From: Balneolaceae bacterium
GTDB lineage: Bacteria; Bacteroidota; Rhodothermia; Balneolales; Balneolaceae
Reading direction: 5' to 3'
NCBI GenBank assembly: GCA_007693745.1
Contig: REDA01000039.1
Span: forward strand, 62,001 to 126,000
DNA: 64,000 nucleotides
Made by a program: the position numbers and the translations under genes. The notes beneath the pieces are model-generated. The model did no database searches. It was not told the origin of the DNA and saw only the letters and a program-made list of their open reading frames with translations. This document shows positions 12,552-48,367 of this stretch, one piece after another (within the stretch, counting starts at the first letter, position 1; each line of letters opens with the position of its first letter).

Positions 12552-13070
12552 TTATTTATTTTGCTTCAATTTGTTCAGTGCTGACCATCGTGGATCTGTG
12601 TATGCATTTTTTTCGGATATTGAATCGGATTGGGACTGATCAATCAGCCCAAACGATCCGCTATCTTCTATATCAGGATGAATTTTCCTGACCGGAACCT
12701 CAAGCATCACAGTATCCCTCACCTCATCACTAATGTCAATAACAGACTGGTGAACATCCAACCCCCGAACTCCGCCTTTAGCCGAGTCAGAATATTCCTG
12801 CACACCAGGTTCATACAACAGATGATATTTGCCACTCAGTTTTTTCTCAAATTTATTAAGCGAGCGGTCACATATCATTTCCACTGCAGCCTCCACATTA
12901 AATCTGATTTCAATAAAATGATTGGTTTTGTAAAAAAAAACTGTGAGATCCCCGTTTAAAAAACGGATTTCGTCACTCAGCTCCAAATCATTTTCATCAA
13001 GCGTAACCTTCCTTTCGCACCTTCCGGCAGGCAACCCCTGTACATTGAATATCATTTTTTTGGAAATCAC
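12552..13070 (-). CDS. yceD: DUF177/YceD family protein (23S rRNA accumulation protein)
   Basis: 172 residues. The C-terminal DPRWSALNKLKQ is the hallmark of the YceD/DUF177 family, and a conserved CDRSLNKF segment lies near residue 67. Known members promote 23S rRNA accumulation and are encoded immediately upstream of rpmF, as here (9 bp). The central part is acidic and poorly conserved. A later Met at codon 6 is an alternative start. It is probably the first gene of the yceD-rpmF-plsX-fab run, with possible read-through from the kinase gene 41 bp upstream. Confidence 0.88.
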   Translation of the reverse strand: MISKKMIFNVQGLPAGRCERKVTLDENDLELSDEIRFLNGDLTVFFYKTNHFIEIRFNVEAAVEMICDRSLNKFEKKLSGKYHLLYEPGVQEYSDSAKGGVRGLDVHQSVIDISDEVRDTVMLEVPVRKIHPDIEDSGSFGLIDQSQSDSISEKNAYTDPRWSALNKLKQNK

Positions 13071-13111
13071 AATAGCTTCGAAAAATAGAAAGATTTGATT
13101 TGCTATGCAAT

Positions 13112-13744
13112 TTAATTAAACAATCCGTAAAGCCTCTGCTCAACCATACTGACGATCTTTCCCAGATCCTCCTGATTATTTACAAAATCAAGATCATCTG
13201 TATCGATCACAAGTTTCTCGTGATCATACTTTTCAATCCACTCTTCATAGAGTCTGTTTAATCGCTCAAGGTATTCAATACGTATCGTATTTTCATAATC
13301 ACGACCGCGTTGCTGTATTTGCCTTACAAGTGTCGGGACATCCGCACGCAGATAGATCAGCAGATCCGGAGCCTTCAGGTACGTCACCATTTCTCTGAAC
13401 AGAGATTTGTAGTTTTCATAATCCCTGTTGCTCATCAACCCCATCTCATGAAGGTTTTTTGCGAAAATCTCAACATCTTCATAAATGGTTCGATCCTGAA
13501 TCAGACTCTTTTCAACACTGTGCAGCACTTTCTGATGCTGAAATCGACTCGATAAAAAATAGATCTGGAGATTAAAACTCCACCTTCTCATATCTTCATA
13601 AAAATCTGAAAGATATGGATTGTCATCAACCGATTCATAGTAGGTTTCCCAGCCGAAATTTTTACCAAGAAGGGACGTCAGCGAAGACTTGCCCGCGCCG
13701 ATGTTCCCCGCAATCGCTATATATTTCTTCTCTTTTCCCGCCAT
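13112..13744 (-). CDS. Deoxynucleoside kinase (dGK/dAK family)
   Basis: 210 residues from the ATG that gives MAGKEKKYIAIAGN. The frame extends 18 codons further upstream, but that would overlap pgi. The P-loop GNIGAGKSS is near the N terminus, followed by DDNPYLSDFYED, the DRTIYED segment (equivalent to the DRS motif) and LLIYLRADVPTLVRQIQQRGR, all matching the deoxyguanosine/deoxyadenosine kinase family. It phosphorylates salvaged deoxynucleosides with ATP. It starts 4 bp after the pgi stop, so it is in the pfkA-pgi transcript. Base specificity is not readable. Confidence 0.9.
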   Translation of the reverse strand: MAGKEKKYIAIAGNIGAGKSSLTSLLGKNFGWETYYESVDDNPYLSDFYEDMRRWSFNLQIYFLSSRFQHQKVLHSVEKSLIQDRTIYEDVEIFAKNLHEMGLMSNRDYENYKSLFREMVTYLKAPDLLIYLRADVPTLVRQIQQRGRDYENTIRIEYLERLNRLYEEWIEKYDHEKLVIDTDDLDFVNNQEDLGKIVSMVEQRLYGLFN

Positions 13745-40804: not shown

Positions 40805-41311
40805 CTATTTTTTTCTGTAGATCGGTACATTGGAACAGGCTTCTCCATACATAAGTTTTCCTACGAAAGGCAGAAGTTTTTTGGTGGCATTCAGATAAAC
40901 CGATGGAGGTAAATCAATTTTACTGCAACCCTTCAGCAGCACATATTTACTGCTGTACTCCTTCCAGTCCACTTTAGAAAATATCCGTTCATAAAGTTCA
41001 CTGAGCGCATCTTCTTTTTTACCAAAGAACACCTCTCTGGCAAACCCGCTGGAGTGCTGAACAACCAGCATATAGGCCCATTTTGGAATAATCGCATCTG
41101 TTGAACAGTGAGTTGCAAGATAGCTGCCCTCAAACTGCTCCCAATTGAACTCTTCGAGATACTTACGATATTCCAACTCCCTGAGAATCAATCCCTGAAA
41201 TAAAAACTGACTTAAATCAAGTTCTTCAATAACAGAATTTTCCGGCAGCATTTTTTCCAGATCAATAGTGATAAGCCGGGATTGTTTTACTTTGTTAATG
41301 ATTTCAGCCAT
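40805..41311 (-). CDS. DUF2480 family protein at the end of the SUF operon
   Basis: 168 residues. The sequence follows the DUF2480 pattern: an IINKVKQSRLITIDLE start, LFQGLILRELEYRKYL, CSTDAIIPKWAYMLV, YVLLKGCSKIDLPPSVYL and a C-terminal GEACSNVPIYRK. Three cysteines, C69, C129 and C159, sit in these blocks. The family is known mainly from Bacteroidota and is uncharacterised. It is last in sufBCDS-nfu-sufA, 33 bp after sufA, so a role in Fe-S assembly, repair or sulfur handling is inferred from context and cysteines only. Confidence 0.85.
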   Translation of the reverse strand: MAEIINKVKQSRLITIDLEKMLPENSVIEELDLSQFLFQGLILRELEYRKYLEEFNWEQFEGSYLATHCSTDAIIPKWAYMLVVQHSSGFAREVFFGKKEDALSELYERIFSKVDWKEYSSKYVLLKGCSKIDLPPSVYLNATKKLLPFVGKLMYGEACSNVPIYRKK

Positions 41312-41344: not shown

Positions 41345-41677
41345 TCAGAGAGAAAAGGATTCACCGCAGCTGCAACTTCTTGCGGCATTCGGATTATTAA
41401 AATGAAAACCCAATCCGGTGAGACCATCAGAATAATCGAGCATTGTACCAGCCAGATAGAGGAAGCTTCGCATATCAACTACCATGCGGATTCCCTGATC
41501 CTCAAAAACCTGATCTGAGGCATCACCGGGACTTTTTTCGAAATCAAGATTGTAGGTAAGTCCTGAACATCCTCCGCTCACTACGGAAACCCTAAGAGCC
41601 GTATCTGCAGAAAATCCCTGCTCCGTGCGTATTTCTTCTATTCGACGGGCTGCCTGTTCACTGATCGAAATGGACAT
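41345..41677 (-). CDS. A-type Fe-S carrier (SufA/ErpA/IscA family)
   Basis: 110 residues. The three cluster-ligand cysteines are in SGGCSGLTY and the C-terminal CSCGESFSL. The family receives clusters from the SufBCD scaffold and hands them to apoproteins. It lies 31 bp after nfu. Which A-type subclass it belongs to is unclear from sequence alone, so no symbol is given. Confidence 0.93.
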   Translation of the reverse strand: MSISISEQAARRIEEIRTEQGFSADTALRVSVVSGGCSGLTYNLDFEKSPGDASDQVFEDQGIRMVVDMRSFLYLAGTMLDYSDGLTGLGFHFNNPNAARSCSCGESFSL

Positions 41678-41708: not shown

Positions 41709-42260
41709 TTATACAGAGATCACCTGTATTTCAGGATCAATCCTTTTCACCATGCTTTCAATTGCATAAAGAGTACCGGAAGTGGCACTCGGACAGGTAC
41801 CACAGGCTCCCTGATAATGCACCTTCAGGCGGTTCCCATCCAGTGCAATAATTTTCAATCCCCCTCCGTCAGCCAGCAGATAGGGCCGGACCTGCTCGTC
41901 AAGAAGCTGATTAATCTGAATTAACCTGGGATCATCTGTTTCAAGTACTTCCCTGGAAGCGTGAACTTCCGAATCCTCCTCAAGATCCAGTTGCGGAGTA
42001 GCCTCTCTTATCGGTGGTGCAAGCTTTCTCAACAGCTCAGACCAAACCGCATTTCCGTTTTGTGTAACCGTAATATATCTGTCCACATAATAGACGTTGA
42101 TTACATTATCAATGGAGAAGAGAGCTTTTGCGAGTTCATCATGCTCAGCATCACCGCTGTTTTCAAAAGATCTTGTAATACCATTCGTTAGTGGTTCTGC
42201 CAATACAAACCGCATTGCATCCGGGTTTGGTGTGCGTTCTATTTCCTTGATTTTTGGCAT
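41709..42260 (-). CDS. Nfu-type Fe-S carrier with N-terminal Nfu domain
   Basis: 183 residues in two domains. The N-terminal Nfu_N domain (about 1-80) has RTPNPDAMRFVL and the later YVDRYITVTQNG. The C-terminal NifU domain (about 105-183) has VRPYLLADGGGLKI and the CxxC of GACGTCPSATSGTL. It binds [4Fe-4S] at a dimer interface and delivers it. It is 11 bp downstream of sufS. The two-domain form is like eukaryotic Nfu1. Confidence 0.93.
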   Translation of the reverse strand: MPKIKEIERTPNPDAMRFVLAEPLTNGITRSFENSGDAEHDELAKALFSIDNVINVYYVDRYITVTQNGNAVWSELLRKLAPPIREATPQLDLEEDSEVHASREVLETDDPRLIQINQLLDEQVRPYLLADGGGLKIIALDGNRLKVHYQGACGTCPSATSGTLYAIESMVKRIDPEIQVISV

Positions 42261-42271
42261 AGTATTTCCTG

Positions 42272-43519
42272 TTATTGATTGAAAAAAGACTGAACATATT
42301 TAATACCAGCTGCAAGCTGATCAATTTCATCTTCAGTATTGTAAAACGAGAGTGAAGCTCTTGTTGTTGCCGATACTTTAAATCTCTTCATAAGAGGCTG
42401 CGCACAGTGGTGACCCGTCCTGACAGCAATGCCTTTTTTATCGAGAAGGGTACCGGCATCCGATGCGTGTATTGATTCAAACACAAAAGAAGCCAGAGGT
42501 GCCCTTTCCGGAGCTTCACCGATGATCCGGATCCCGTCAATCGCTCGCAGCTTCTGAATCAGCAGGTCAGCCAGTTCAGATTCCCTTTCTTCGATCCGGC
42601 CCATTCCGATCTGTAGAAGGTAATCGATGGCCGCTCCTGTGCCAATCGCAGCCGATATGGGGGGTGTGCCGGCTTCAAACCGAAATGGAACTCTGTTATA
42701 GGTTGTTTTTTCAAAAGACACCTTGTCGATCATATCTCCGCCACCTCTGTAAGGAGGCATCTCTTCCAGTATTTCTTTTTTCCCGTACAAGATTCCAAAT
42801 CCTGTAGGACCGCATAATTTATGGGATGAGAATGCGAGGAAATCGGTATCCAGTTCCTGAACATCAACTTTCATGTGAGGAACGGATTGAGCCGCATCCA
42901 GCAGAACAACAGCACCTGCTTCGTGAGCCAGCTCTGTAATCAGTTTTACAGGATTTACCGTACCAAGAACATTTGATACATGAATCACGGCAACTATTTT
43001 TGTACGCGGACCCAGCATCGATTTATAAGCTTCCAAATCCAGCAAACCCTGATCTGTAACCGGAATCACCCGGATTATCGCGCCGGTTTTATGAGCAATC
43101 ATCTGCCATGGAACAATGTTTGCATGATGTTCCATTTCAGAAAGGATGATCTCATCCCCCCTGTTCAGCATAGTACCTCCCCATGAATTTGCAACCAGAT
43201 TGATTGAATCAGTGGTTCCGGTTGTAAAAATGATTTCATCCTCACTTGGGGCATTAATCAGATTTTTCACTTTTGATCGGGTTGACTCAAAAGCATCCGT
43301 CGCATTCTGGCTCAGAGTATGAATTCCTCTGTGTACATTTGCATGTTCATTTCTGTGATAGCGATCAATCCGATCAATCACCTGAGCGGGCATCTGGCTG
43401 GATGCAGCATTATCAAGATAGACCAATGGGTGTCCATTCGTTTTTTGAAGCAAAACCGGGAAATCCGATCGGATTCGTTTGAAATCCACCACAGATTTTA
43501 TGTCAGCAGCCGGATTCAC
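42272..43519 (-). CDS. sufS: SufS cysteine desulfurase
   Basis: 415 residues, class V aminotransferase fold. The PLP lysine is in FLAFSSHKLCGPTGFG and the persulfide-carrying cysteine in VRTGHHCAQPLMKRF. It supplies sulfur from cysteine to SufBCD. The start ATG directly follows sufD. No sufE or sufU partner gene is seen in the window, so the sulfur acceptor must be elsewhere or replaced. Confidence 0.96.
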   Translation of the reverse strand: MNPAADIKSVVDFKRIRSDFPVLLQKTNGHPLVYLDNAASSQMPAQVIDRIDRYHRNEHANVHRGIHTLSQNATDAFESTRSKVKNLINAPSEDEIIFTTGTTDSINLVANSWGGTMLNRGDEIILSEMEHHANIVPWQMIAHKTGAIIRVIPVTDQGLLDLEAYKSMLGPRTKIVAVIHVSNVLGTVNPVKLITELAHEAGAVVLLDAAQSVPHMKVDVQELDTDFLAFSSHKLCGPTGFGILYGKKEILEEMPPYRGGGDMIDKVSFEKTTYNRVPFRFEAGTPPISAAIGTGAAIDYLLQIGMGRIEERESELADLLIQKLRAIDGIRIIGEAPERAPLASFVFESIHASDAGTLLDKKGIAVRTGHHCAQPLMKRFKVSATTRASLSFYNTEDEIDQLAAGIKYVQSFFNQ

Positions 43520-44848
43520 TTACACCAAAACTTTTTTGGGTTTACTGTTGGCTCTTGTATAGCGGTATACTTCATCAATCAGAAGTTTATGAACAGAATC
43601 CACTTTAACATTTTCGATGGTCTCGAGTGCAAATGCGTACGTCAGAACTTCCTTTGCTTTTTCTTCCGTCATCCCGCGGCTTTGAAGATAGAACACTTCC
43701 TCCGGATCAAGCTGTCCGATCGTGGCACCGTGAGAGCAGAGAACATCGTCAGCAAAAATCTCGAGCTGTGGTTTGGTATTTACCAAACCGTCTGCAGAGA
43801 GCAGAAGGTTCCGGTTTTCCTGAAATGAATCGATTTTCTGGGCATCTCTCCGAACAAATATTTTACCGTTGAAAATGCTGTGAGCACTGCCGTTTACCAC
43901 CACTTTATGCAGCTGGTGACTGTTTGCATGGGAAAATCTGTGATCCATTAAGGAATGAGTATCCGCCACCTGTTCTCCGTCAATCAGTACCAGGCCATCC
44001 ATCGTAAAATTGACTTCTTCATCCTCCTGTATCACTCTGGGTTCATTTCTGGAAAGTTTTGCTCCAAGTGTGATCGTATAGGAGTGGTATTCTGAGTTCT
44101 TTTCCACGTATGCTATGGGCCGCGACATATGGATTGCATTTTGCCCATCCCGCTGAATACGGACATGATGGATATGAGCTCTCTGCTTAACCTTTACTTC
44201 GCAGACAGGGATAGTCATGTACACATTTTCAGAAAGACCGATATGCTCTTCAATGACAGTAGCATCGGAATCTGTATCCGCGACAATCAAAATTCGCGGA
44301 TTGGCGATGAAAGGTTTCTCTGAATCTGTATACAGATTCAGGATCTGTATAGGTGCTTCTGCCCTGGCCCCTGGTTCGAGGTGAATAAATGCTCCATCCT
44401 CAAACATTAACCCGTTATATGCGGTAAACAGATCATTCTCGTAGTTTACAAGTTTATTCAAATAAGCTTGTACGATTTTATTGCGTGCATATGCCGACAG
44501 GTTGCCCACGGTAACACCTTTGCCCAAACCGCCAATTGATGAATAACCTTCCTGAAATATTCCGTTGATAAAAACCAAACGGCTTCTGTCAGATTCCGGG
44601 ATAAAATATTTCTCAATATTCTGCGCCGGTATGGTTTCAGCCTGTCCGGTTCTAACGAACGGAGTACGTGAAATAAGTTTGAGATCAGTAAATTTCCACT
44701 CCTCAATTTTTTTGTTGGGAAATGCTGTGGAGTTCAGTGTCATCATACTCTTCTCCCGAATTCCTGTCCAGAGCCTGTTCCCGGATTCCGGTGCATGCAT
44801 TGCAAGTTTATGAAGTACTGATGGTTCGATCCTTGTGGGATGTGCCAT
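43520..44848 (-). CDS. sufD: SufD, FeS assembly scaffold subunit
   Basis: 442 residues, right-handed beta-helix protein. Blocks IEEWKFTDL near the N terminus and DDVLCSHGATIGQLDPEEVFYLQSRGM at the C terminus are diagnostic. It forms the SufBC2D complex, where it is needed for iron entry. Its ATG overlaps the sufC stop by 1 bp, and the downstream sufS start follows immediately. Confidence 0.96.
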   Translation of the reverse strand: MAHPTRIEPSVLHKLAMHAPESGNRLWTGIREKSMMTLNSTAFPNKKIEEWKFTDLKLISRTPFVRTGQAETIPAQNIEKYFIPESDRSRLVFINGIFQEGYSSIGGLGKGVTVGNLSAYARNKIVQAYLNKLVNYENDLFTAYNGLMFEDGAFIHLEPGARAEAPIQILNLYTDSEKPFIANPRILIVADTDSDATVIEEHIGLSENVYMTIPVCEVKVKQRAHIHHVRIQRDGQNAIHMSRPIAYVEKNSEYHSYTITLGAKLSRNEPRVIQEDEEVNFTMDGLVLIDGEQVADTHSLMDHRFSHANSHQLHKVVVNGSAHSIFNGKIFVRRDAQKIDSFQENRNLLLSADGLVNTKPQLEIFADDVLCSHGATIGQLDPEEVFYLQSRGMTEEKAKEVLTYAFALETIENVKVDSVHKLLIDEVYRYTRANSKPKKVLV

Positions 44849-45621
44849 TATTTTGCCTCTCCATTTACAGTTTCAAGTGACTCCAGCCAGTCGTATCCTT
44901 TCTCTTCAAGTTCAAGGGCCAGTTCCTTGCCACCGGTTTTAACGATTCTGCCATTAATCATCACATGGACGTGATCCGGAATTATGTAGTTCAGCAAGCG
45001 CTGATAGTGAGTGATCAGAACAATTGCGTCATGATCTCCATGAAGTTTGTTGATCCCATCTGAAACTATTCTGAGAGCATCTATATCAAGACCGGAATCT
45101 GTTTCATCAAGCAAAGAGAGCGTTGGCTGAAGAACAGCCATCTGGAAAATTTCATTTCTCTTTTTTTCACCACCGGAAAAGCCGGTGTTCACACTCCTCT
45201 CAAGAAAATCCGGATTCATTTCAACGAGACTGAGTTTTTCCTTGATATAGTCATCAAATTCAAGAGGATCAAGCTCTTCGCGTCCCCTGGATGCAGCAAT
45301 CGTATTGTAAGACTCACGAAGAAGTGTGGTATTGGTTACTCCCGGCACTTCCACAGGATATTGAAAAGCAAGAAAAATCCCTGCGTGGGCTCTCTCATCC
45401 GGATCCATCTCAAGAATACTCTCTCCGTTGTAGAGGATGTCGCCTTTCGTAACTTCATAATGCGGATGGCCTGCAACTACTTTAGAGAGTGTGCTTTTTC
45501 CGCTTCCGTTCGGACCCATTATGGCGTGTATCTCTCCTTTGGAGACTTTGAGATTTACGCCTTTGAGGATTTCAATTCCTTCGCCTTCGACTTCTGCATG
45601 TAAATTTTTAAGTTCTAACAC
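44848..45621 (-). CDS. sufC: SufC, ABC-type ATPase of the SUF system
   Basis: 257 residues. Walker A is [11 protein letters not shown], the signature is [13 protein letters not shown], Walker B is [12 protein letters not shown], and the switch His is in ITHYQRLL. It is a soluble ATPase that drives conformational change in SufBCD and is not a transporter. It is separated from sufB by 123 bp, the only sizeable gap in the operon. Confidence 0.97.
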
Positions 45622-45744: not shown

Positions 45745-47187
45745 CTACCCGACACTGCCTTCAAGTTTGATTCCAAGTAATTTGTTCGCTTCAACAGCAA
45801 ATTCCATGGGAAGTTCTTTGAGAACTTCCTTACAGAATCCATTCACAATAAGTGAGATGGCGTCATCTTCACTGATGCCACGCTGTTGCAGATAAAAGAT
45901 CTGATCTTCGCCAACCCTGGATGTTGTCGCTTCATGCTCAATTTTCCCTGTGGGATTGGCAGACTCAATGTACGGGAATGTGTGGGCTCCGCAAGTTTGA
46001 CCAATCAGCATGGAATCACACTGTGAATAGTTTCTAGCATTATCTGCTTTTTTCGAAATCTTCACCTCACCTCTGTAGCTGTTATTCGACCTCCCGGCTG
46101 AAATCCCTTTCGATATGATGGTACTTTTGGTGTTCTTTCCGATATGAATCATTTTAGTGCCGGTATCTGCCTGCTGCATCTTGTTGGTTACTGCCACAGA
46201 GAAAAACTCACCCACTGAATTATCACCCTGCAAAATCACACTTGGGTATTTCAGTGTCACAACCGAACCTGTTTCAAGCTGAGTCCAGGAGATCTTGGAA
46301 TTTTTGCCCCGGCAGGCACCGCGCTTCGTTACAAAATTGTAGATTCCACCCTTACCGTTCTCGTCTCCCGAATACCAGTTCTGTATCGTTGAATACTTAA
46401 TTTCAGCATTATCAAGAGCAATAAGTTCGACAACTGCAGCATGAAGCTGATTTTCATCATACACCGGAGCAGTACACCCTTCCAGATAACTGACATGACT
46501 GTTCTCCTCAGCAATAATCAGGGTCCGCTCGAACTGACCGGAGTTCATATTATTGATTCTGAAGTAGGTTGAGAGTTCCATTGGACAGATGGTATCCTTT
46601 GGGACATAACAAAATGAGCCATCTGAAAAAACAGCAGAGTTGAGTGCTGCATAGAAATTGTCTCTTGCCGGCACTACTGAACCCATATACTTTTTAATCA
46701 GTTCGGGATGATCCTGCACAGCTTCAGAGATGGAACAGAATATAACCCCGGCCTCTGCAAGTTTTTCTTTAAAAGATGTGAAAATGGAAATACTGTCAAA
46801 CACAGCATCCACCGCCACGCCTGCAAGCATTTTCTGCTCATCGAGTGGAATACCCAGCTTCTCATAGGTCTCCCGAATATTCGGGTCAACTTCATCCAGA
46901 CTGTTTAGTTTTGGCTTGTTTTTGGGGGCTGAGTAATACTGCAGTGTGTCAAATTTTGGTTTTTCATATGTCGCATTAAACCATGATGGTTCTTCCATCT
47001 CGACCCAGGCTCTGTATGCTTTCAACCTGAATTCCGTCATCCATTCCGGTTCATTTTTCTTTTCGGAAATCAATCTTACAATATCCTCATTGATCCCGGA
47101 TGGAAAATCTTCGTACTCAATATCCGTGGTGAATCCATATTTATATTCTTCACCAATCATCGACTCGAGAGCTTTTGTCTCACTCAT
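45745..47187 (-). CDS. sufB: SufB, FeS assembly scaffold
   Basis: 480 residues. It is the cluster-building subunit of SufBC2D. Characteristic blocks are the [17 protein letters not shown] and [18 protein letters not shown] stretches, [22 protein letters not shown] and a conserved Cys in [11 protein letters not shown]. It heads the suf operon and is 202 bp downstream of pta on the same strand. Its upstream gap holds a good promoter candidate and an overlapping palindrome. Confidence 0.97.
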
Positions 47188-47389: not shown

Positions 47390-48367
47390 TCAGCTTAATA
47401 GTGCTGCCACACATGCTGTATTGATGATATCATCAACGGAACACCCTCTTGAAAGATCGAGATAAGGTTTCGAAAGCCCCTGAAGAATTGGCCCAGTTGC
47501 AACAGCTCCTGCCAATCTTTCTGTAATTTTATAACCGATATTGCCTGCATCCAGATTTGGGAATATCAATACATTCGCATCTCCTTTTAACGATGAATCG
47601 GGAGCTTTCCTGGTCGAAATCTCCGGAATTACAGCTGCATCGAACTGAAGTTCACCATCCATCACCCAATTACTTTTCTCCTTTGCCTTGCTGTACGCCT
47701 CCTGAATTTTGGTAACGGATTCGTGCCTGGCACTCCCCTTTGTTGAAAAAGAGAGAAATGCGATTTTTGGTTCGATTCCGGTTAGCTTGAGGTGCGTTTT
47801 TGCGGAGTCAAGTGCAATATCTGCAAGCTGAATTGAATCGGGGTAAGGAACAACTGCGCAGTCTCCGTATGTGAACACCCTGTGATCCGGCATCTCCATT
47901 AAAAAACAGCTCGAAACCAGGCCTGAATCATCAGATACTCCTACAGTCCGGAGTGCCGCAATGATCACTTCAGGGGTAGAGGCTACTGACCCCGCCACGG
48001 CTCCGTCAACATCACCTTTTTCCAGAAGCCAACCTGCTGTAAACAGTGCATTCCCACAGAGTGTCTGAAGCGTTTCCTGATCGGGCTTCTTATGTGCAAG
48101 TTTTTGGCTGAAGAACTGATATCTCTCCTCAAAATCACTCTTTCCGTTAACCGGAAAAATCGTCAGACCTTTCGGGATGGACACGTCATTTTCACTGCAG
48201 AGTTTCTGAATTTCGTCCTCTGAGCCCAACAACACCGGGGATACGAGTTGTTTCTGATGCAAAAAAATGGCTGCTTCAATGATTCTTATGTCTTTTGCTG
48301 CTTCGGGAAAGACAACTCTTCGCCTGAGACTTGAAGCTGCAATCCGGATTCTTTCAATTAATTTCAT
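47390..48367 (-). CDS. pta: Phosphate acetyltransferase
   Basis: 325 residues, the compact single-domain Pta. It interconverts acetyl-CoA and acetyl-phosphate. Visible blocks are RRRVVFPEAAKDIR, VDGAVAGSVASTPEVIIAALR, SFSTKGSARHESVTK, ELQFDAAVIPEI and FPNLDAGNIGYKI, all in family order. No ackA is adjacent. It lies upstream of suf on the same strand, with 202 bp between. Confidence 0.94.
   Translation of the reverse strand: MKLIERIRIAASSLRRRVVFPEAAKDIRIIEAAIFLHQKQLVSPVLLGSEDEIQKLCSENDVSIPKGLTIFPVNGKSDFEERYQFFSQKLAHKKPDQETLQTLCGNALFTAGWLLEKGDVDGAVAGSVASTPEVIIAALRTVGVSDDSGLVSSCFLMEMPDHRVFTYGDCAVVPYPDSIQLADIALDSAKTHLKLTGIEPKIAFLSFSTKGSARHESVTKIQEAYSKAKEKSNWVMDGELQFDAAVIPEISTRKAPDSSLKGDANVLIFPNLDAGNIGYKITERLAGAVATGPILQGLSKPYLDLSRGCSVDDIINTACVAALLS

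Follow-up and report, generated by a model that had tools for sequence, protein, structure and literature searches.

What does a protein of the family DUF2480 contribute at the end of a suf operon? The question is raised by a run of minus-strand genes in the window, by which we mean the whole stretch of 64,000 nucleotides of Balneolaceae DNA that was analysed. The initial annotation, made from the letters alone, had remarked that sufE/sufU, sufT and a regulator are missing from the window, and had suggested that the last gene of the run might fill one of those roles, for example as a sulfur acceptor or a late carrier. The genes of the run are, from the last to the first:

40805..41311, minus strand: DUF2480 protein, 168 aa (PF10652, E 1.2e-60), with repeat 1 at about residues 28-98 (C69) and repeat 2 at about residues 99-168 (C129, C159)
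41345..41677, minus strand: A-type carrier of the SufA/IscA family (PF01521, E 2.4e-18; TIGR00049 above cut-off)
41709..42260, minus strand: Nfu-type protein with Nfu_N and NifU C-terminal domains (PF08712, PF01106)
42272..43519, minus strand: SufS cysteine desulfurase (PF00266; TIGR01979 above cut-off)
43520..44848, minus strand: SufD (PF01458; TIGR01981 above cut-off)
44848..45621, minus strand: SufC ATPase (TIGR01978 above cut-off)
45745..47187, minus strand: SufB, with which the suf run begins (above cut-off for TIGR01980 and NF008773)

The assignment of the ORF at 40805-41311 to DUF2480 was borne out by the Pfam search, in which the protein matches PF10652 over residues 3-167 with 204.6 bits against a gathering score of 25 and is thus a full-length member of a family without a described function in Pfam. 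The gene order had also been read correctly: all genes lie on the minus strand in the order sufB-sufC-sufD-sufS-nfu-sufA-DUF2480, with successive gaps of 123, -1, 0, 11, 31 and 33 bp, and since DUF2480 and the gene beyond it converge, their stops 7 bp apart, DUF2480 is the final gene of the suf run. The only cysteines of the protein are C69 (HCSTDAI), C129 (KGCS) and C159 (GEACS), exactly at the positions and in the motifs first given for them. PF10652 is the only Pfam profile reported for the protein at E 0.001, and the same holds at E 1; the protein has no match to the profiles of SufE (PF02657), SufU/IscU (NifU_N, PF01592), the A-type carriers (PF01521), SufT (FeS_assembly_P, PF01883) or Rrf2 (PF02082), and none in NCBIfam at E 0.001. 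A phosphotransacetylase gene (window 47390-48367; NF007233 above cut-off) precedes sufB by about 200 bp and has the same orientation.

The genes missing from the run were sought in the rest of the source genome (G000; 2.87 Mb in 100 contigs, 95.5% complete). A sufE gene elsewhere, which the initial annotation had itself named as one half of a finding that would refute its idea (the other half being a loss of DUF2480 without an Fe-S phenotype), is present on another contig: the single SufE match (G000:C93:2861-3214) belongs to a protein of 146 aa (L111:2828-3268) with the stretch GCQSQVW, which we take to hold the active cysteine. A NifU_N profile search of this 95.5% complete assembly found no SufU/IscU-type protein. 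Two matches to PF01883 were obtained, one being PaaD, encoded beside PaaC and above its NCBIfam cut-off, and the other a frame of 378 aa, presumably Mrp; a stand-alone SufT is therefore probably missing from the assembly. Three Rrf2-type matches lie in the genome, all outside the window. The absence of sufE/sufU, sufT and a regulator is thus consistent with the window as inspected but loses its force as an argument, given SufE and the three Rrf2-type matches elsewhere; the protein itself has no Rrf2 match, and the regulator role was discarded on that ground. Two of the Rrf2-type matches are neighbours (G000:C83:12277-12666 and 13018-13401) and lie on the contig of the suf operon, some 90 kb away. 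A genome of the same genus, G119, differs from the source genome in having a second SufE directly beside a SufT-type PF01883 match (G119:C39:5648-6305).

Whether DUF2480 accompanies or replaces these factors can be read across the phylum, of which 198 genomes were searched with profiles for DUF2480, SufE, SufBD and NifU_N, giving 106, 112, 136 and 93 positive genomes, respectively. Among the DUF2480-positive genomes G128 scores under the Pfam cut-off, and nine genomes were classed as having half-size forms by partial profile matches, five of these being read as proteins. SufE or a SufU/IscU-type protein, or both, is found in all 106 genomes with DUF2480, a finding that, together with the SufE of the source genome, overturns the proposal that DUF2480 fills the SufE/SufU role; none of the 136 SufBD-positive genomes lacks both. 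Full-length DUF2480 occurs in 12 genomes without SufBD and without SufE, where NifU_N is matched at E 1e-50 or better, and 47 SufBD-positive genomes have no DUF2480, so the protein is neither dependent on SUF nor a filler of gaps in it. It is absent from 14 of 14 control genomes outside the phylum, E. coli among them. Relatives outside the sample were represented by the 80 top-ranking of at least 581 in genome_contigs (hereafter the named loci), and within these and the 14 controls DUF2480 was seen only in the phylum of the source genome. No viral homologue was confirmed in viral_contigs.

Gene neighbourhoods were compared for 100 of the 106 loci, the window included (G006, G011, G079, G133, G049 and G128 were left out), by a search for seed matches to SufA, B, C, D, S, E, T and U, Nfu, IscS, IscU and IscA; counts were taken from all frames, as a greedy ORF filter dropped DUF2480 in 12 of 180 loci. 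At least one Fe-S seed match lies in the fetched stretch at 65 of the 100 loci, spanning 13 of 24 families, and always upstream on the same strand, with none at any of the 100 loci downstream of DUF2480 or on the opposite strand; this linkage supports the initial annotation in part. The nearest upstream match is an A-type carrier gene (sufA/iscA) at 36 of the linked loci, sufT at 18 and iscS at 11, or, counted by family, an A-type carrier in six (f1, f2, f5, f12, f15, f31), SufT in one and IscS in six. A cysteine desulfurase gene lies somewhere upstream at 62 of the 65.

Several arrangements recur. The order sufBCDS-nfu-sufA-DUF2480 is present in 25 of 26 genomes of family f1 (the exception being G077), and the four f2 genomes have the same order plus sufU ahead of nfu, in the same operon as DUF2480. 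The gene directly upstream of DUF2480 is iscS in five families from the class to which the window belongs, namely f3 (5/5), f6, f7 (2/2), f8 and f10 (10 loci, gap at most about 120 bp), and the five f3 genomes have no NifU_N match; in f11 iscS precedes DUF2480 by about 2.1 kb, and in f5 the order is iscS-iscA-DUF2480 (2/2). In all 18 genomes of f21, sufE-sufT lies upstream of DUF2480, sufE within about 3.2 kb and sufT within about 2.3 kb, the latter being directly adjacent in 13 and separated by 0.9-1.9 kb in five; three of these genomes (G029, G088, G107) keep sufE-sufT, yet have no desulfurase or SufBCD gene nearby. Replacement of SufT by DUF2480, another of the roles first suggested, was ruled out by the proximity of the two genes in f21.

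Of the 80 named loci (the top-ranking of at least 581 relatives), 51 have an Fe-S gene upstream in the same orientation; L147 and L161 have Nfu downstream only, and the linked locus L183 also has IscS on the opposite strand. Arrangements were read from 30 of the 80 rows and include the f1 order in Balneola and Fodinibius, the sufU order in four MAGs, the sufE-sufT order in Zobellia, Arenibacter, Algibacter, Psychroflexus, Croceivirga and Leeuwenhoekiella and the iscS order in a Rhodothermus MAG; in these 30 rows the loci of Chitinophaga, Mucilaginibacter, Cytophaga and Saprospiraceae show no Fe-S linkage. In the set of 100, the unlinked loci number 35 and belong to 11 of the 24 families (f4, f9, f13, f16, f19, f24, f26, f28, f29, f30, f39); for L046, L095 and L097 the upstream sequence covered is shorter than 6 kb, and in f4 a single locus has upstream sequence of adequate length. 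Neighbours of unlinked loci resemble TsaB, PpiD or ScpB genes, as judged by eye from the sequence. In f29 and f30 a TsaB-like gene (tRNA t6A synthesis), likewise named by eye, is directly upstream (L113:8281-8970, L051:6979-7671, L049:5175-5861).

The conservation of the three cysteines, proposed at the outset as a check, is high: in the full-length relatives C69 is kept in 93 of 95 and C129 and C159 in 95 of 95, and none of the three varies in alignment A2, whose 62 rows comprise the window protein and those of 61 among the 80 named loci. C69 is replaced by Asn in only two full-length proteins, from one genus of f19 (L059:7778-8287, L060:7775-8293), and the three-cysteine site is therefore not universal. 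Also invariant at the 95 full-length loci are N6, D32, L37, L43, E45, R49, W78, G128, G156, E157, S160 and P163. The protein is an internal duplication, as judged from its two halves: residues 28-98 and 99-168 align in hhalign with a probability of 98.5 (E 1.8e-14 in a single comparison, 59 columns) at a steady offset of 59 residues. In the register of the repeats C69 and C129 are one residue apart, and repeat 1 has nothing equivalent to C159.

Half-size relatives, in lineages other than those of the full-length forms, have PF10652 matches to both halves of the profile. Those read as proteins are:

L106:7915-8178, L107:7893-8189, L108:7872-8186, L109:7799-8104 and L110:7873-8184: half-size DUF2480 proteins, frames of 87-104 aa, with two PF10652 stretches each

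All five genes lie downstream of iscS-iscA or iscS-iscU-iscA. Their products keep D32, E45, R49, W57, K127, C129, E157 and C159, and C69 is not in the alignment; C129 and C159 are thus kept in 100 of 100 proteins (95 full-length, five half-size). The retention in both forms of D32, E45, R49 and E157 (95/95 in the full-length proteins) and of K127 (94/95) suggests that the site is functional and that the cysteines are more than structural.

An AlphaFold2 model built from 62 sequences (mean pLDDT 91.9, pTM 0.81, with residues 5-10 below 50) is an alternating helix-strand protein in which C69, C129 and C159 sit one to two residues past strands 64-68, 123-127 and 152-157. Ligand sites in alpha/beta folds are often located just past strands, and the three thiols may converge on one site. 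A sequence search of solved structures returned no relative of DUF2480, so no relative of defined function stands behind the idea of a carrier. Searches with the predicted model gave a best E of 0.024 in Foldseek, with none at E 0.001, and in VIA-align, over 998 chains, a best Z of 4.4 (rmsd 3.5 over 82 residues), with none at Z 5 or above; these values neither point to a structural relative nor argue against one, and they do not speak for a new fold.

Taken as a whole, the neighbourhoods, co-occurrence and conserved residues make it very probable that DUF2480 is an accessory of Fe-S biogenesis and not a stand-in for SufE or SufU, and we infer that the accessory step is common to SUF and ISC. 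The family resembles three known kinds of factor without matching any. Like SufE and SufU, it is encoded in suf operons and has conserved cysteines, but it has no sequence match to them, coexists with them and also occurs where SufBD is absent. The A-type carriers (SufA/IscA/ErpA), which have three conserved cysteines, share with it this feature, their small size and their place in suf and isc clusters, where they are often its nearest neighbour; DUF2480 differs from them in lacking a PF01521 match and in sharing an operon with a genuine A-type carrier, its immediate neighbour. SufT (DUF59) is likewise an accessory factor linked to suf genes and is the nearest Fe-S neighbour in f21, but DUF2480 has no PF01883 match, and the two genes are no more than about 2.3 kb apart in all 18 genomes of that family.

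DUF2480 would, in the reading that we prefer, work beside any assembly machine, be it SUF with SufE, SUF with SufU, IscS or ISC, and act late: a newly made cluster, or else iron, would be bound by thiols of C129 and C159, to which C69 of the other repeat would add a third ligand, and would then be handed on, either to the A-type carrier often encoded alongside or to target proteins. An A-type carrier or SufT as the nearest neighbour (36 and 18 of 65 loci) speaks for a late step of this kind, whether carrier or insertion, and the late carrier role, the second suggestion of the initial annotation, is possible. The accessory role and the late carrier mechanism taken together fall somewhat short of an even chance, and the carrier mechanism in particular is put forward tentatively.

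The closest competitor is a persulfide relay, in which DUF2480 would bind SufS or IscS and, using C129 or C159, deliver sulfur to one particular recipient, be it a cluster scaffold or a tRNA thiolation or cofactor enzyme, alongside SufE, SufU or IscU and not in their place. In its favour, IscS is nearest at 11 of the 65 linked loci and a desulfurase lies upstream at 62; at the 10 loci of f3, f6, f7, f8 and f10 the desulfurase is the direct neighbour, the five f3 genomes lack a NifU_N match, and the two cysteines that would carry the sulfur are the ones kept in every protein. The relay has to contend with the dedicated acceptor already present in every sampled DUF2480 genome, with G029, G088 and G107 of f21, which have sufE-sufT neighbours and no desulfurase near, and with the lack of a match to the SufE and SufU profiles. 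Counted by family, the carrier and persulfide readings are even; we moderately prefer the carrier and hold the relay, with whichever of these acceptors, to be unlikely.

Frataxin/CyaY and IscX tune IscS, and DUF2480 might similarly tune the desulfurase or scaffold, or shield the machinery under oxygen, its cysteines acting as redox sensors. Its presence with SUF and ISC alike would suit such a role, as would its distribution relative to COX1. In the class of G053, DUF2480 is missing from six of seven COX1-negative genomes against 12 of 190 COX1-positive ones (Fisher p 1.6e-6), the six representing two families only; in the phylum sample all nine COX1-negative genomes are without DUF2480, eight of them from one family (f18). 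The control Bacteroides has neither COX1 nor DUF2480, and in f15 the half-size gene is present in G087, which has COX1, and absent from G005, which does not. The independent events are thus few, and the association with COX1 is no more than a hint. Sampled members of f14, f17, f20, f22 and f23, moreover, have COX1 and SufBD without DUF2480, so that oxygen use does not require it. A simple oxygen link was rejected, since COX1 is found in 189 of the 198 genomes and cannot account for the 92 without DUF2480. We regard tuning or protection as quite unlikely.

It is more improbable still that DUF2480 is a housekeeping protein unrelated to Fe-S clusters whose gene shares operons by chance. The 11 unlinked families of 24 (f4 on its one adequate locus) and their TsaB-, PpiD- or ScpB-like neighbours, named by eye, would fit that view; against it stand the variety of partners (sufA, sufT, iscS, iscA, iscSUA) in 13 of 24 families, their unfailing upstream, same-strand position across the 100 loci and the placement of all five half-size relatives in isc clusters. 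That DUF2480 is the operon's missing sulfur acceptor, the first role suggested for it and one to which a suf run without sufE/sufU and the conserved cysteines lend some appeal, can be virtually dismissed: the source genome encodes SufE, with its GCQSQVW stretch, on a different contig, DUF2480 is the sole candidate acceptor in none of the 198 genomes, and its gene follows sufE in all 18 f21 genomes and belongs to the sufU operon in all four from f2.

A text search of one library of open-access PMC papers found neither 'DUF2480' nor 'PF10652', and we are aware of no earlier statement of the tie to Fe-S genes across SUF and ISC, the internal duplication or the half-size relatives in isc clusters. 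If the accessory role is correct, a large bacterial group uses an Fe-S biogenesis factor that is missing from E. coli-based models. The pair of half-size and full-length forms, with conserved cysteines and in SufE, SufU and ISC backgrounds, offers a testable system for the function and evolution of a late Fe-S factor, and one may speculate that it bears on the difficulty of maturing some Fe-S enzymes in foreign hosts.

The origin of the full-length form was approached with an unrooted RpoB tree of 29 of 30 chosen genomes (G016 had no RpoB match), in which one branch (98/97) separates the 15 genomes with full-length DUF2480 from the rest, namely four half-size genomes and ten without DUF2480. 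Full-length DUF2480 thus marks one clade of this tree. Most simply, a single duplication-fusion would have taken place in the clade's ancestor, with vertical descent thereafter; the tree is unrooted, and a deletion between the repeats could alternatively have yielded the half-size protein. Joined to the carrier reading, the first of these origins gives a fuller scenario, which we consider doubtful as a whole. It would begin with an isc-linked half-size protein that binds its ligand as a dimer by way of two KGC and two GEAC cysteines; a single event of duplication and fusion, in the common ancestor of the clade uniting the window's class with that of G053, would then have produced a pseudo-dimer with one three-cysteine site. 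DUF2480 would thus be a further Fe-S carrier or insertion factor in addition to the A-type, Nfu and SufT proteins, confined to one phylum and compatible with SUF and ISC alike. Six long DUF2480 frames among the 180 loci, considered as possible fusions to other partners, were taken for GC-rich stop-to-stop frames. At the half-size locus L107, the products of the neighbouring isc genes pass the NCBIfam cut-offs for IscS, for IscU and for an A-type protein.
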